Shown piece by piece: positions 7,449 through 11,237 of a DNA stretch of 11,999 bases (position 1 is the stretch's first letter; each line of letters begins with the position of its first letter). Under the pieces are notes generated by a model. That model worked only from the letters and a program-made list of their open reading frames with translations, did no database searches and was not told the origin of the DNA. Source of the DNA: Chitinophagaceae bacterium (GTDB lineage Bacteria > Bacteroidota > Bacteroidia > Chitinophagales > Chitinophagaceae). A program made the position numbers and the translations under genes. The stretch covers positions 1 through 11,999 of the forward strand of contig JAHEZA010000030.1 in the NCBI GenBank assembly GCA_023251335.1. The letters run 5' to 3'.

Positions 7449-8384
7449 TCAGCGAAATAGTAATTCGCACGGTTTAAGGCCGGTATGTTTTTTGAAAGCG
7501 GTAGAAAAATGCGAAATAGAAGAGTAACCCAAAGAGGCAGAAACTTCTGTAACAGTCAATCCCTTTTCATACAAAAGATATTTGGCGTGTTCCATTCGCT
7601 GGCTCTGAAAAAAATCAAAAATGGTGGTGCCATACATTTCTTTAAATCCTTTCTTCAGATAGCATTCGTTGATAGCTGCTTTCCGGCTCAGTTCCCTGAT
7701 GGTGAGCGGCTCTCCGATATGCTGAATCAGTACTTCACGGGCCAGAGAAATTTTGTCACGGTCAGCTTCATTTTCCAAAAACTTGCAGGAAAAATCTTCT
7801 TCACCTTCGCCCGCCATACATTCCATGCTATATAATAACAGCATTTGTGTTTGAGCATTAATGAAAATATTTTCCATACTCTCGGTATAAGTATGATTCA
7901 TTAAAGAATCTAAAACAGTTCTGGTCTTTCCACAAAGTGGCAGCGTTTTAGAAAAGGATGAAGTATGTTTAAAATTCAGGATATCTTCTGAAAATGAAGT
8001 GGTCTTTAATCCTTTAACAAACTGAGAAAGATGATCGCTGTTAAACCGGAAACAGGCTACATCAATTGTGTCTATCAGTTCATCGCAATTATGCGATTGG
8101 GAGTGCTTACAAAAATCACACTCTTTGTCTTTTACTTTGCAATACCTGTTGCCTTCCAGGCAAAACACCAATTCAAGATTTCCCGATTTTTTTTCTTCGG
8201 CGTTATAATTATAAACCATCATGCCGACTTCCTGGATGTTGACATTAGGAGATTTGCGATACCGGTTGATGACATATTGAACGGACCCGGGGATATACTG
8301 CGAACTATGATGTACCAGTTCCATCTCCTCCTGCATTACAGGATGATTAAGTGCGATTGATAAAATATTTTGAGCAGATTCCAT
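7449..8384 (-). CDS. AraC-family transcriptional regulator, PchR-like, with Cys-rich sensor domain
   Basis: A 311-residue cytosolic DNA-binding protein. Residues 205-311 form the double helix-turn-helix of the AraC family: LTIRELSRKAAINECYLKKGFKEMYG is the first, and LTVTEVSASLGYSSISHFSTAFKKHTG the second with its recognition helix. The sequence KKGFKEMYGTTIFDFFQSQRM resembles PchR-type regulators that control siderophore and heme receptors. The N-terminal domain holds C75, C82, C89, C92, C100 and C111, a spacing that could bind metal or respond to redox state; this is inference. The gene lies directly upstream of the receptor/HmuY pair on the same strand, the usual place for a local activator. 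The frame extends to a TTG at 8417, but that codon lies just upstream of the promoter hexamer at 8407-8414, so ATG at 8384 is the better start. Confidence 0.9.
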   Translation of the reverse strand: MESAQNILSIALNHPVMQEEMELVHHSSQYIPGSVQYVINRYRKSPNVNIQEVGMMVYNYNAEEKKSGNLELVFCLEGNRYCKVKDKECDFCKHSQSHNCDELIDTIDVACFRFNSDHLSQFVKGLKTTSFSEDILNFKHTSSFSKTLPLCGKTRTVLDSLMNHTYTESMENIFINAQTQMLLLYSMECMAGEGEEDFSCKFLENEADRDKISLAREVLIQHIGEPLTIRELSRKAAINECYLKKGFKEMYGTTIFDFFQSQRMEHAKYLLYEKGLTVTEVSASLGYSSISHFSTAFKKHTGLKPCELLFR

Positions 8385-8406
8385 AACGAAGTATAAAAAA
8401 GCAGGG

Positions 8407-8414
8407 CAAAGATA
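8407..8414 (-). promoter_or_regulatory. -7 promoter element of the AraC gene (TATCTTTG)
   Basis: On the minus strand TATCTTTG is an exact TAnnTTTG match and ends 22 bases before the ATG at 8384, implying a very short leader. The dyad at 8454-8467 lies 39 bases further upstream, a position suited to an activator or to autoregulation. A clean -33 TTTG is not seen, which would fit an activator-dependent promoter. Confidence 0.6.
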
Positions 8415-8453
8415 CAATCTTACTGGCAGATTTTGGCGGCATGAAAGGTTAAG

Positions 8454-8468: not shown

Positions 8469-8548
8469 TTAATTTATAATTGTGGAAATCAAAATAAAAT
8501 AATAATTTGTATTGGGATTTTTCATTTATTTCAAATAAAAGATTTAGA

Positions 8549-9013
8549 ATGAAAACGGTAAACCAATGGCTGGATGAATATGGTGAAAGTCACAAAAATG
8601 AAACCAACAAATCAATCCATTGGGTATGCGTACCGGCCATTTTCTTTTCGATTTTTGGCGTGCTTTACACGATTAAAGTTCCGCTATGGATTGACGGTCA
8701 TCATCTGAATGTAGCCATGTTTGCCATGGCACTCGTCATTTTATATTACCTGCGCCTTTCATTTTCACTCGGAATCGGAATGCTTTTTTTTGGAATTGTT
8801 TGTCTTATTCTGTACCATCTGATTGAAAAATATATACCGGTCTCGCTTTGGATAGTCTGTCTTGTTATTTTCGTAGTTGCCTGGGTCGGGCAGTTTTACG
8901 GACATAATATTGAGGGTAAAAAACCATCGTTTCTCAAAGACATTCAGTTTTTATTAATAGGCCCGATGTGGTTGATGAGTTTTATTTATAAAAAAATGGG
9001 GATTGCGTTTTAA
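8549..9013 (+). CDS. DUF962 / Mpo1-like small membrane protein
   Basis: A 154-residue protein with about four membrane-spanning segments (roughly residues 24-42, 54-72, 74-92 and 97-116). It carries the family's conserved histidine motifs: Y-x-x-x-H-x-N-x-x-N-x-x-I-H near residues 11-24, and the C-terminal GQFYGHNIEGKKPSFLKDIQFLLIGPMWLM. The yeast member Mpo1 is an Fe(II)-dependent dioxygenase that shortens 2-hydroxy fatty acids in phytosphingosine breakdown. Bacterial members have no firmly assigned job, though many Bacteroidota make sphingolipids and 2-hydroxy fatty acids. The open frame begins at a TTG at 8507; ATG at 8549, after an A/T-rich leader, gives the normal family N-terminus (MKTVNQWLDEYGESH). 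It is a single gene, divergent from the AraC gene and convergent with the nucleotidyltransferase. Confidence 0.88.
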   Translation: MKTVNQWLDEYGESHKNETNKSIHWVCVPAIFFSIFGVLYTIKVPLWIDGHHLNVAMFAMALVILYYLRLSFSLGIGMLFFGIVCLILYHLIEKYIPVSLWIVCLVIFVVAWVGQFYGHNIEGKKPSFLKDIQFLLIGPMWLMSFIYKKMGIAF

Positions 9014-9054: not shown

Positions 9055-9774
9055 TCAAATGAAAAACTGCTCCGCTTTTAAAATGCTTTCCGGTTTGCCC
9101 ACATCAATAAATTTCGATTCGCTATGATCAAACGCCATAATATCCTGTGTTTTGGCTAAATCAAGATAAACATCCACCATAGAAAATTTACCTTCCATTT
9201 TTATCAAATCAAAAATTTTTGGCGAAAGAACCTGGATACCACTGAACGCTTTTTGAATATAATTTTTTGATGCCCTGCTGATTTTTTGTTCGCCGGTATT
9301 TTCATTTTTCCATCCGCATAAATGATCCATTTTATCAAACAAAAAATAGCGGGAAGTAATTCGCGAAGAAACCGCAAGAGTTGCAAGAGAATTACTTTTT
9401 TTATGCTGAAGCATCATTTGCTCCAGGTTCATATCAGTAAGAATATCCACGTTCATTACAATAAAAGGCGCTTCATCCTTTTCAAAAAACCAGGCCACCT
9501 TTTTTATACCTCCTCCGGTTTCCAACACTTCGCGTGTTTCATCAGAAAAAGTAATAACACTTCCAAACCCATTATTTGCTTTTATCAAATCAATAATCTG
9601 GTCAGCAAAATGGTGCACATTTACAATCACTTCCCGGATTCCGAACGATGCGAGGTATTCAATATTTCTTTGTAAAATAGTTTTCCCATTTACGATAGCC
9701 AGTGCTTTAGGATGCTTATCAGTAAAAGGCTTCAACCTTGTGCCCAAACCTGCGGCAAGGATCATTGCTTTCAT
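9055..9774 (-). CDS. Sugar-1-phosphate nucleotidyltransferase (MurU-like)
   Basis: A 239-residue cytosolic enzyme of the NTP_transferase family, which joins a sugar 1-phosphate to an NTP to give an NDP-sugar. It opens directly with the nucleotide-binding signature AAGLGTRLKPFT (7-18) and PKAL (22-25). The acidic metal site is in VMNVDIL, and FIDVGKPES near the C-terminus supplies the second conserved Asp. The short length (no left-handed beta-helix domain) matches MurU, the N-acetylmuramate-1-phosphate uridylyltransferase of cell-wall recycling, rather than GlmU or the longer glucose-1-phosphate enzymes. The gene starts 5 bases after the stop of the AmgK-like kinase fusion at 9780-11237, and AmgK and MurU are consecutive steps of one pathway. 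Mannose-1-phosphate guanylyltransferase is the main alternative. Its start ATG is at 9774. Confidence 0.85.
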   Translation of the reverse strand: MKAMILAAGLGTRLKPFTDKHPKALAIVNGKTILQRNIEYLASFGIREVIVNVHHFADQIIDLIKANNGFGSVITFSDETREVLETGGGIKKVAWFFEKDEAPFIVMNVDILTDMNLEQMMLQHKKSNSLATLAVSSRITSRYFLFDKMDHLCGWKNENTGEQKISRASKNYIQKAFSGIQVLSPKIFDLIKMEGKFSMVDVYLDLAKTQDIMAFDHSESKFIDVGKPESILKAEQFFI

Positions 9775-9779
9775 AAAAG

Positions 9780-11237
9780 TTAGTTTTCAAAACCTTTTAA
9801 TTCATGGATATTTTGTTCAATATGGTTTAGGCTGATTTTTACTTTGAATTTATTTCTAAGGTATCTTGATAGCGCGTCAGCGGCATACACACTCCGGTGT
9901 TGCCCACCGGTGCAACCAAAACTAATCGTTAATGATTCAAAATTTCTTTTGAGATAATCTTCTACGGAAATATCTACTATATTATAAACTCCATTCAAAA
10001 ATTCAGGCATATCTGTTCTTTGCTCCAGGAAATCCATAACAGGTTTATCTCTTCCGGTCAATGGTTTAAATTCATCAAACCGGCCTGGGTTCATCAATCC
10101 CCTGCAATCAAAAACAAAACCGCCGCCATTGTTACTTTGTTCTTTTGGATACCCGGTTTTTAAATATGAAAAACTGTTAATGGTTACAATCAATGGTGTG
10201 GCATCATTTGCCTGCAAAGGTTTGAAACGATTTACAACTTCATCCTGCACAATCAAACTTAGCAAGCGATCATATTCCGGCAAAGCAATTCCCATGTTTT
10301 TATTTTCCTGGAACCATTTAAGATTGGTAAGCGCCAGCGGAATGCTTGTAAGGAACTGTGCTTTTCTTTCAAACAAACCACGAAAACCATAAGCGCCTAA
10401 CACCTGCATCAATCTTATTAATACATATCCATTATATTGGCTGGTAAAACGGGGGCGGTCTATAGACTTCTCCAAAATTTCGCTGATGCAATCCATATAA
10501 TATTCCAATAGAGAATTCTTCCAATCTTCCGAAAGATTAGCCCGCGCCTGCCATAGCAACGAAGCCGCATCATAATGCAATGCACCTTTCATTCCGCCCT
10601 GGTAGTCTATAAAATGTACCTCGTCATCTTGTATATAAATGTTCCTGCTTTGAAAATCGCGAAACATAAAATATTTGTATTCTACGTGGGTGAGGTAAGT
10701 GCTCAATGCTTCAAAATCATCAATCAGTTTTTCTTTATCGTAAGGGATTTTAAGCGTATCAAGAAAGTAATATTTAAAATATAAAAGGTCGCTTATGATA
10801 GCTTGCTTTCCAAATTCTTTTGAAGTAAGGCAATAAGAATCGTCCAGGTTATCAATGCCTTTAATTTGCAAAAAAGCAAGGGCTTTTAAACTCTTTTTAA
10901 ATAAGCTGTAAACATAATCGTTCTCTCCAAATTTTTCCAATGCGTTCAAAAGTGAAATGCTCCCAAAGTCTTGCTGTATATATATTTTAGCATCTTCAGA
11001 CGTATAGTAAACTTCAGGAACAGGCGCATTTATTTTAGAGAAATGCCGGGTAAAATATAAAAACGTTTTACTTTCTTTCAGGTTTTCGTTATACGCAACT
11101 ATGTAAGATTTCTTTTCTGTAATGATGCGAAAATAAATGCGGTCGCCGCCCGACTTTGGTAATTTTTCAATCTGTGTGATTGGTTCATTATTTTCACTTT
11201 GAAAAAATGCCCTGATGTTTTCCGCTACAGTTTCCAT
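9780..11237 (-). CDS. Fusion protein: AmgK-like aminoglycoside-phosphotransferase-fold sugar kinase + RapZ C-terminal domain
   Basis: A 485-residue cytosolic two-domain protein. Residues 1-325 are an APH-fold kinase: KSGGDRIYFRI (28-38) in the ATP-binding lobe, the catalytic loop MFRDFQSRNIYI with D194 and N199, and the metal-binding F-I-D211-Y-Q-G-G. AmgK is the anomeric kinase of N-acetylmuramate/N-acetylglucosamine in cell-wall recycling. Residues 348-480 match the C-terminal half of RapZ: VTINSFSYLKTG, FVFDCRGLMNPG, LTGRDKPVMDFL and the signature GCTGGQHRSVY (441-451). In E. coli RapZ that half binds RNA partners and senses glucosamine-6-phosphate. The N-terminal P-loop half of RapZ is absent, replaced by the kinase. 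The MurU-like gene follows after 5 bases, so kinase and uridylyltransferase form an operon. A plausible reading is a sugar kinase under allosteric control by an aminosugar phosphate; the substrate is not proven by sequence. Confidence 0.88.
   Translation of the reverse strand: METVAENIRAFFQSENNEPITQIEKLPKSGGDRIYFRIITEKKSYIVAYNENLKESKTFLYFTRHFSKINAPVPEVYYTSEDAKIYIQQDFGSISLLNALEKFGENDYVYSLFKKSLKALAFLQIKGIDNLDDSYCLTSKEFGKQAIISDLLYFKYYFLDTLKIPYDKEKLIDDFEALSTYLTHVEYKYFMFRDFQSRNIYIQDDEVHFIDYQGGMKGALHYDAASLLWQARANLSEDWKNSLLEYYMDCISEILEKSIDRPRFTSQYNGYVLIRLMQVLGAYGFRGLFERKAQFLTSIPLALTNLKWFQENKNMGIALPEYDRLLSLIVQDEVVNRFKPLQANDATPLIVTINSFSYLKTGYPKEQSNNGGGFVFDCRGLMNPGRFDEFKPLTGRDKPVMDFLEQRTDMPEFLNGVYNIVDISVEDYLKRNFESLTISFGCTGGQHRSVYAADALSRYLRNKFKVKISLNHIEQNIHELKGFEN

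Follow-up and report, generated by a model that had tools for sequence, protein, structure and literature searches.

In peptidoglycan recycling, N-acetylmuramic acid-6-phosphate (MurNAc-6P) is described as a product of AnmK that MurQ converts to N-acetylglucosamine-6-phosphate (GlcNAc-6P); in Pseudomonas, which is without MurQ, MupP is described as dephosphorylating MurNAc-6P for the kinase AmgK and the nucleotidyltransferase MurU (PMC5371407). In Escherichia coli, binding of glucosamine-6-phosphate (GlcN6P) by the C-terminal domain of RapZ (RapZ_C) is reported to control its partner GlmY (PMC7073468). A resemblance of the RapZ pocket to the loop found in tyrosine phosphatases that depend on Cys has been pointed out, and hydrolysis of GlcN6P by RapZ speculated upon (PMC7199280); phosphatase activity has been ascribed to the RapZ homologue YvcJ (PMC7525490). 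Here we describe an AmgK-like kinase fused to RapZ_C and followed by a MurU-like protein, encoded in a stretch of 11,999 nucleotides (the window; contig JAHEZA010000030.1, assembly GCA_023251335.1) from a Chitinophagaceae bacterium. The fusion is probably a bifunctional MurNAc-6P phosphatase/MurNAc 1-kinase. The genes and domains concerned are:

9780-11237, minus strand: fusion gene of an APH/AmgK-like kinase and the RapZ C-terminal domain, 485 residues (Pfam, NCBIfam)
10221..11237, minus strand: kinase half, residues 1-339, with D194, N199 and D211 invariant
9810..10205, minus strand: RapZ_C domain, residues 345-476
9055-9774, minus strand: MurU-like nucleotidyltransferase, 239 residues (PF00483, 75.8 bits; NF045761, 133.2 bits)

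A preliminary description of this DNA had read the 485-residue protein as an APH/AmgK-type kinase carrying the RapZ C-terminal domain without the RapZ ATPase half, with a MurU-like gene 5 bases downstream, and all of this was borne out. PF01636 (APH) matches residues 33-247 with 27.1 bits (cut-off 23.2) and PF22740 (RapZ_C) matches residues 350-473 with 106.5 bits (cut-off 27); in Pfam, the protein matches neither PF03668, the RapZ N-terminal Walker ATPase-like domain (RapZ_N), nor any HAD model. Besides the RapZ_C profile match, the RapZ fold is present in the predicted structure (predicted local distance difference test score 92.3, predicted template modelling score 0.84). The names AmgK and MurU are given by similarity because both proteins score under the NCBIfam equivalog cut-offs, the fusion with 44.6 bits against 550 for AmgK and its neighbour with the above 133.2 bits against 250 for MurU (NF045761). 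A protein search with the fusion returned at least 8000 relatives, of 464-559 residues among the matches listed, and the architecture is far beyond chance. Database names for these fusions are 'RNase adapter RapZ', 'RapZ C-terminal domain-containing protein' and 'phosphotransferase', and the named near relatives are metagenome-assembled genomes (MAGs) called Hanamia and Ginsengibacter. Residue conservation was counted in an alignment of 63 fusions, that of the window included, in all of which D194, N199 and D211 are retained.

RapZ_C is distributed along with sources of MurNAc-6P and, to some extent, with the lack of MurQ. We surveyed 198 sampled Bacteroidota genomes for the kinase, RapZ_C, RapZ_N, AnmK, MurQ, MurK-like kinases and MurU, leaving out MupP, and took AnmK or a MurK-like (BadF-family) kinase as the likely MurNAc-6P maker. 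The kinase occurs in 67 genomes, AnmK in 136, MurQ in 140 and RapZ_C in 24, each of which also has the kinase, so that the recurrence in Bacteroidota anticipated in the preliminary description is confirmed. A maker is present in 24/24 RapZ_C genomes versus 0/43 kinase-only genomes (Fisher P 1e-18). RapZ_C is found in all 14 genomes, from seven families, that have a maker and no MurQ (13/13 without the MAG of the window, which is 85.8% complete in 671 contigs and has one RapZ_C match), and in 10/140 genomes with both maker and MurQ (Fisher P 7e-14), kinship being ignored in both tests. All eight genomes with AnmK and without MurQ, one of them the same incomplete MAG, encode RapZ_C. In the family of the window, RapZ_C is present in 109 of 117 genomes; the eight RapZ_C-negative genomes all have MurQ, and all 29 MurQ-negative genomes have RapZ_C.

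The seven RapZ_C genomes without AnmK each encode a BadF-family (MurK-like) kinase (85-144 bits), whose gene adjoins that of an AmpG-like transporter in six of them and lies one gene away in the other (G156); in G031, a NagZ-like gene follows. MurK of Tannerella forsythia is described as a MurNAc-specific member of the BadF family whose product is MurNAc-6P (PMC5790795), and this bacterium as importing free MurNAc via MurT and possessing AmgK, MurU, MurK and MurQ, with AnmK said to be absent (PMC7670621). Of three kinase-only loci examined, two, from one family (G044 and G032), have the gene order kinase, MurU, NamZ and sodium:solute symporter; free MurNAc would therefore be released and imported there, with no 6-phosphate to remove. 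In line with the pattern, genome G009, which has MurU and a fusion-type kinase 38% identical to that of the window, but not RapZ_C, also gave no AnmK, MurQ or MurK in the survey. As a separate observation, the genes for a MurK-like kinase and an AmpG-like transporter stand in a row in L186:4207-9001 with one for a GH3/NagZ-like protein that also carries a domain of the beta-lactamase family.

Because of this maker/MurQ pattern and of the kinase-only loci, pathway logic leads us to read RapZ_C as a MurNAc-6P phosphatase. MurNAc-6P, formed from 1,6-anhydroMurNAc by AnmK or from MurNAc by a MurK-like BadF-family kinase, would lose its 6-phosphate through the Cys chemistry of RapZ_C, which would thus fill the place of the HAD enzyme MupP in Pseudomonas. 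The freed MurNAc would then receive a phosphate at C1 through the kinase half, with D194 as its catalytic residue, and the resulting MurNAc-1P would be converted by MurU to UDP-MurNAc, which MurC would use, bypassing MurA and MurB.

Several observations weigh against a MurNAc-6P phosphatase. MurQ is also present in 10 of the 24 RapZ_C genomes, as well as in G236, the sister genome of the incomplete MAG of the window. The kinase-only contrast amounts to about two lineages, 42 of the 43 genomes coming from one family, and the third kinase-only locus (G009) has a TonB_C/MORN gene instead of NamZ and the symporter. Within the family of the window, the contrast between RapZ_C and MurQ has a P value of 0.094, and two of the 29 MurQ-negative genomes (G226 and G292) are without AnmK, MurK not having been looked for. 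Moreover, E. coli murQ mutants are described as accumulating MurNAc-6P (PMC5371407), so E. coli RapZ does not turn over this compound efficiently. Because the genomes cluster phylogenetically and MupP lies outside the survey, we place our confidence only somewhat above even.

Two of the MurK-like proteins were scanned, and both match NagK_SO3507 best (104 and 107 bits), i.e., GlcNAc kinases. This also speaks for another substrate, RapZ_C being in that case a phosphatase for GlcNAc-6P or GlcN6P that supplies GlcNAc to the anomeric kinase. AmgK is indeed named N-acetylmuramate/N-acetylglucosamine kinase in NCBIfam, and GlcN6P is bound by RapZ. However, RapZ_C tracks AnmK and MurQ, which are enzymes of MurNAc compounds, and a MurU homologue (E 4.3e-39 or better) accompanies it in 24/24 genomes, within about 0.5 kb in 18 of them; of ten kinase-negative control genomes, nine gave no MurU match at E 1e-12 and the tenth (G021) a 28% match at 3.5e-15. 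We hold a substrate other than MurNAc-6P to be quite improbable, and the pocket of the domain adds to this. Its main elements are:

9891..9917, minus strand: GCTGGQHRS, residues 441-449, with the CX5RS phosphate-loop signature (C442, R448, S449), in 63/63 fusions
10101..10112, minus strand: F376-D377-C378-R379, with D377 and R379 invariant and D377 a candidate general acid
10080..10091, minus strand: N383-P384-G385-R386, at the place of N-P-[H/Y]-[W/Y] in full-length RapZ, with G385 at E. coli H190
10119..10127, minus strand: G371-G373 glycine loop, inside an insertion relative to full-length RapZ, invariant in the 63 fusions
9822..9824, minus strand: H472 (E. coli H276), invariant

The C, T, G, G, Q, H, R and S of the CX5RS loop, together with D377, R379, N383 and H472, are invariant in the 63 fusions, and C442 stands at the position of E. 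coli C247. From this invariance and from the known chemistry of CX5R enzymes, we infer that C442 would attack the phosphate, held by R448 and the loop amides, with D377 or H472 as acid/base. In E. coli RapZ, the ligand (malonate or sulfate) is described as held by H190, T248, G249, H252 and R253 (PMC5737377). The preliminary description had proposed checking whether the GlcN6P pocket is kept: four of these five residues are (T443, G444, H447 and R448, in 63/63 fusions), and the fifth, H190, is not, being replaced by Gly (G385) in 63/63 and followed by a basic residue at position 386 in 62/63. Seven full-length RapZ proteins from Gamma- and Alphaproteobacteria, Bacilli and Fusobacterium have His or Tyr at the H190 position, and the GGG insertion was not found in any of the seven. 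A glycine with a basic neighbour could suit a larger, acidic sugar, which argues against GlcNAc-6P or GlcN6P as the substrate; it is our guess that G385-R386 makes room for the lactyl group and reads it. A quick tree places the domains of the Bacteroidota/Ignavibacteria type, fused and stand-alone alike, on one side of a branch of length 1.79 (SH-like approximate likelihood ratio test, SH-aLRT, 100), and on its other side RapZ together with a long-branched domain from a Streptomyces plasmid.

The same alignment bears on another suggestion of the preliminary description, an additional RNA-binding activity of the kinase that would link wall recycling with the expression of hexosamine genes. The C-terminal domain of E. 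coli RapZ is reported to bind GlmY on its own (PMC5737377), and basic residues are frequent among the fusions at R196 (57/63), R266 (45/63) and R268 (50/63), but not at R223 (2/63), K281 (17/63), R282 (27/63) or K283 (5/63). Moreover, the region that binds RNA is described as limited to Enterobacteriaceae (PMC7073468), YvcJ homologues are said to be without its motif (PMC7525490), and RapZ_N passes the cut-off in 0/198 Bacteroidota genomes, with a single weak hit in G130 (22.8 bits). Since the window protein has lost four of the eight positions linked to RNA binding (R223, K281, R282 and K283) and keeps a basic residue at the other four (R196, R266, R268 and K270), RNA binding by it is made less likely, and we judge the suggestion as a whole highly improbable.

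The arrangement of the genes varies around RapZ_C. In the 24 genomes, RapZ_C shares a single frame with the kinase in 20, occupies a separate neighbouring frame in three (G012, G031 and G095) and lies on another contig in G180. Among loci from named contigs (the best 80 of at least 583), it is fused in 71 (L150 confirmed), unfused beside the kinase in six, beside MurU with no kinase near in one (L165) and alone in two (L089 and L093). As to the adjacency of a nucleotidyltransferase, about which the preliminary description had asked, 71 of the 80 loci, fused or not, have enough flanking sequence to show a neighbouring MurU, and 40 of these do. The recurrence of kinase, RapZ_C and MurU as a set of three speaks for the phosphatase reading: besides the fusion with its MurU gene, they are three consecutive genes in L091, L100 and L125, MurU starts 361 bases after RapZ_C in L121, and in Parabacteroides distasonis a MurU homologue follows the fusion. 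In a MAG of Bacteroidaceae, a single open reading frame of 751 residues (L156:3398-5653) joins APH, RapZ_C and NTP_transferase domains in a kinase-RapZ_C-MurU triple fusion, and in L165:818-7100 the order is murC-like, a gene for 295 residues, ftsA, ftsZ, RapZ_C and murU-like.

The occurrence of RapZ_C off the kinase, as its own gene, beside MurU or on another contig, is more easily explained by an enzyme than by a gate built into the kinase. The preliminary description had proposed a kinase gated by an aminosugar phosphate; its kinase-like half, RapZ_C half, MurU partner and link to MurNAc salvage all stand, and neither GlcN6P gating nor RNA binding emerges as the best reading. In such a scheme RapZ_C would have no catalytic role; as a sensor it would bind MurNAc-6P (or GlcN6P) and thereby gate the kinase, restricting salvage to times when recycling products are present. 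The control of GlmY through GlcN6P, the RapZ fold and phosphate loop kept in the fusions and the alternative outlet that MurQ offers MurNAc-6P in 10/24 RapZ_C genomes are consistent with it. However, RapZ_C lies away from the kinase in G180, L089, L093 and L165, and the eight genomes with AnmK and without MurQ (seven without the MAG of the window) would be left, MupP aside, with no known use for this compound. GlcN6P would be expected in kinase-only genomes too, which are without RapZ_C, and binding alone would not require an invariant C442. We therefore regard a sensor as unlikely and retain the MurNAc-6P phosphatase.

Stand-alone RapZ_C is represented by 4393 proteins of about 73-233 residues, clustered at 90%, fragments being possible among these. 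Somewhat more tentatively than for the fusion itself, we suggest that RapZ_C domains may form a family of MurNAc-6P phosphatases in their own right, widespread, fused in Bacteroidota and stand-alone in Ignavibacteria, and a third route besides MurQ and MupP; the GlcN6P sensor RapZ of E. coli might then be a recycling enzyme turned regulator. Other surroundings of stand-alone domains were also recorded. In L064:5801-7836 (G180) and in L089:5998-8093 (Ignavibacteriae), RapZ_C has as its neighbour a gene for Endonuclease I that carries a secretion tail; in L093:5998-7695, it is followed after 3 bases by a major facilitator superfamily transporter, for which no NCBIfam model matched at E 1e-10. 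RapZ_C-only matches in Actinomycetota, on plasmids of Streptomyces, Nocardiopsis and Planobispora, are mostly named 'RNase adapter RapZ', and the one in L194:3001-3483 has no kinase or MurU annotated nearby. In the window, genes for an AraC-family regulator (7449-8417, minus strand) and an Mpo1-like protein (8507-9013, plus strand) lie next to the operon, with no evident link to it.

The fusion architecture is already visible in databases, and the role proposed here was not found in the literature searched, which covered few subscription journals and in which RapZ did not appear together with AmgK, CX5R or Bacteroidota. A review that mentions RapZ and Bacteroidetes treats, in the text seen, RNase E distribution and cyanobacterial RapZ, the fusion not being discussed there (PMC10989914). 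If our reading is true, it would supply, in part of a major phylum (24/198 sampled genomes; 109/117 in the family of the window), the missing phosphatase of peptidoglycan recycling, give a function to fusions currently named 'RNase adapter RapZ' and suggest where the sensor domain of RapZ came from in evolution. The question of PMC7199280, whether RapZ hydrolyses what its pocket binds, could then also be put to a direct test in the fusion, for which the pathway hints at a substrate.

Compared with known systems, the fusion resembles MupP, the HAD MurNAc-6P phosphatase (PMC5371407), in its proposed reaction and place in the pathway, but belongs to another protein family. With AmgK, the MurNAc/GlcNAc 1-kinase of Pseudomonas, it shares the APH family, the catalytic residues and the MurU partner, whereas its score lies far under the equivalog cut-off and it carries an extra domain. 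Its neighbour resembles MurU as a nucleotidyltransferase gene adjoining a kinase gene, but reaches 133 of the 250 bits set by NCBIfam. The fusion has in common with RapZ/YvcJ the fold of the C-terminal domain, the phosphate loop and the residues D182, R184, C247, H252, R253 and H276, and differs by the absence of the Walker ATPase half, by its GGG insert, by NPG[RK] in place of NP[HY][WY] and by its position across the SH-aLRT 100 branch. Finally, the CX5R[ST] loop, described as a defining feature of Cys-based phosphatases (PMC7199280), is shared with these enzymes as C442-X5-R448-S449 in 63/63 fusions.
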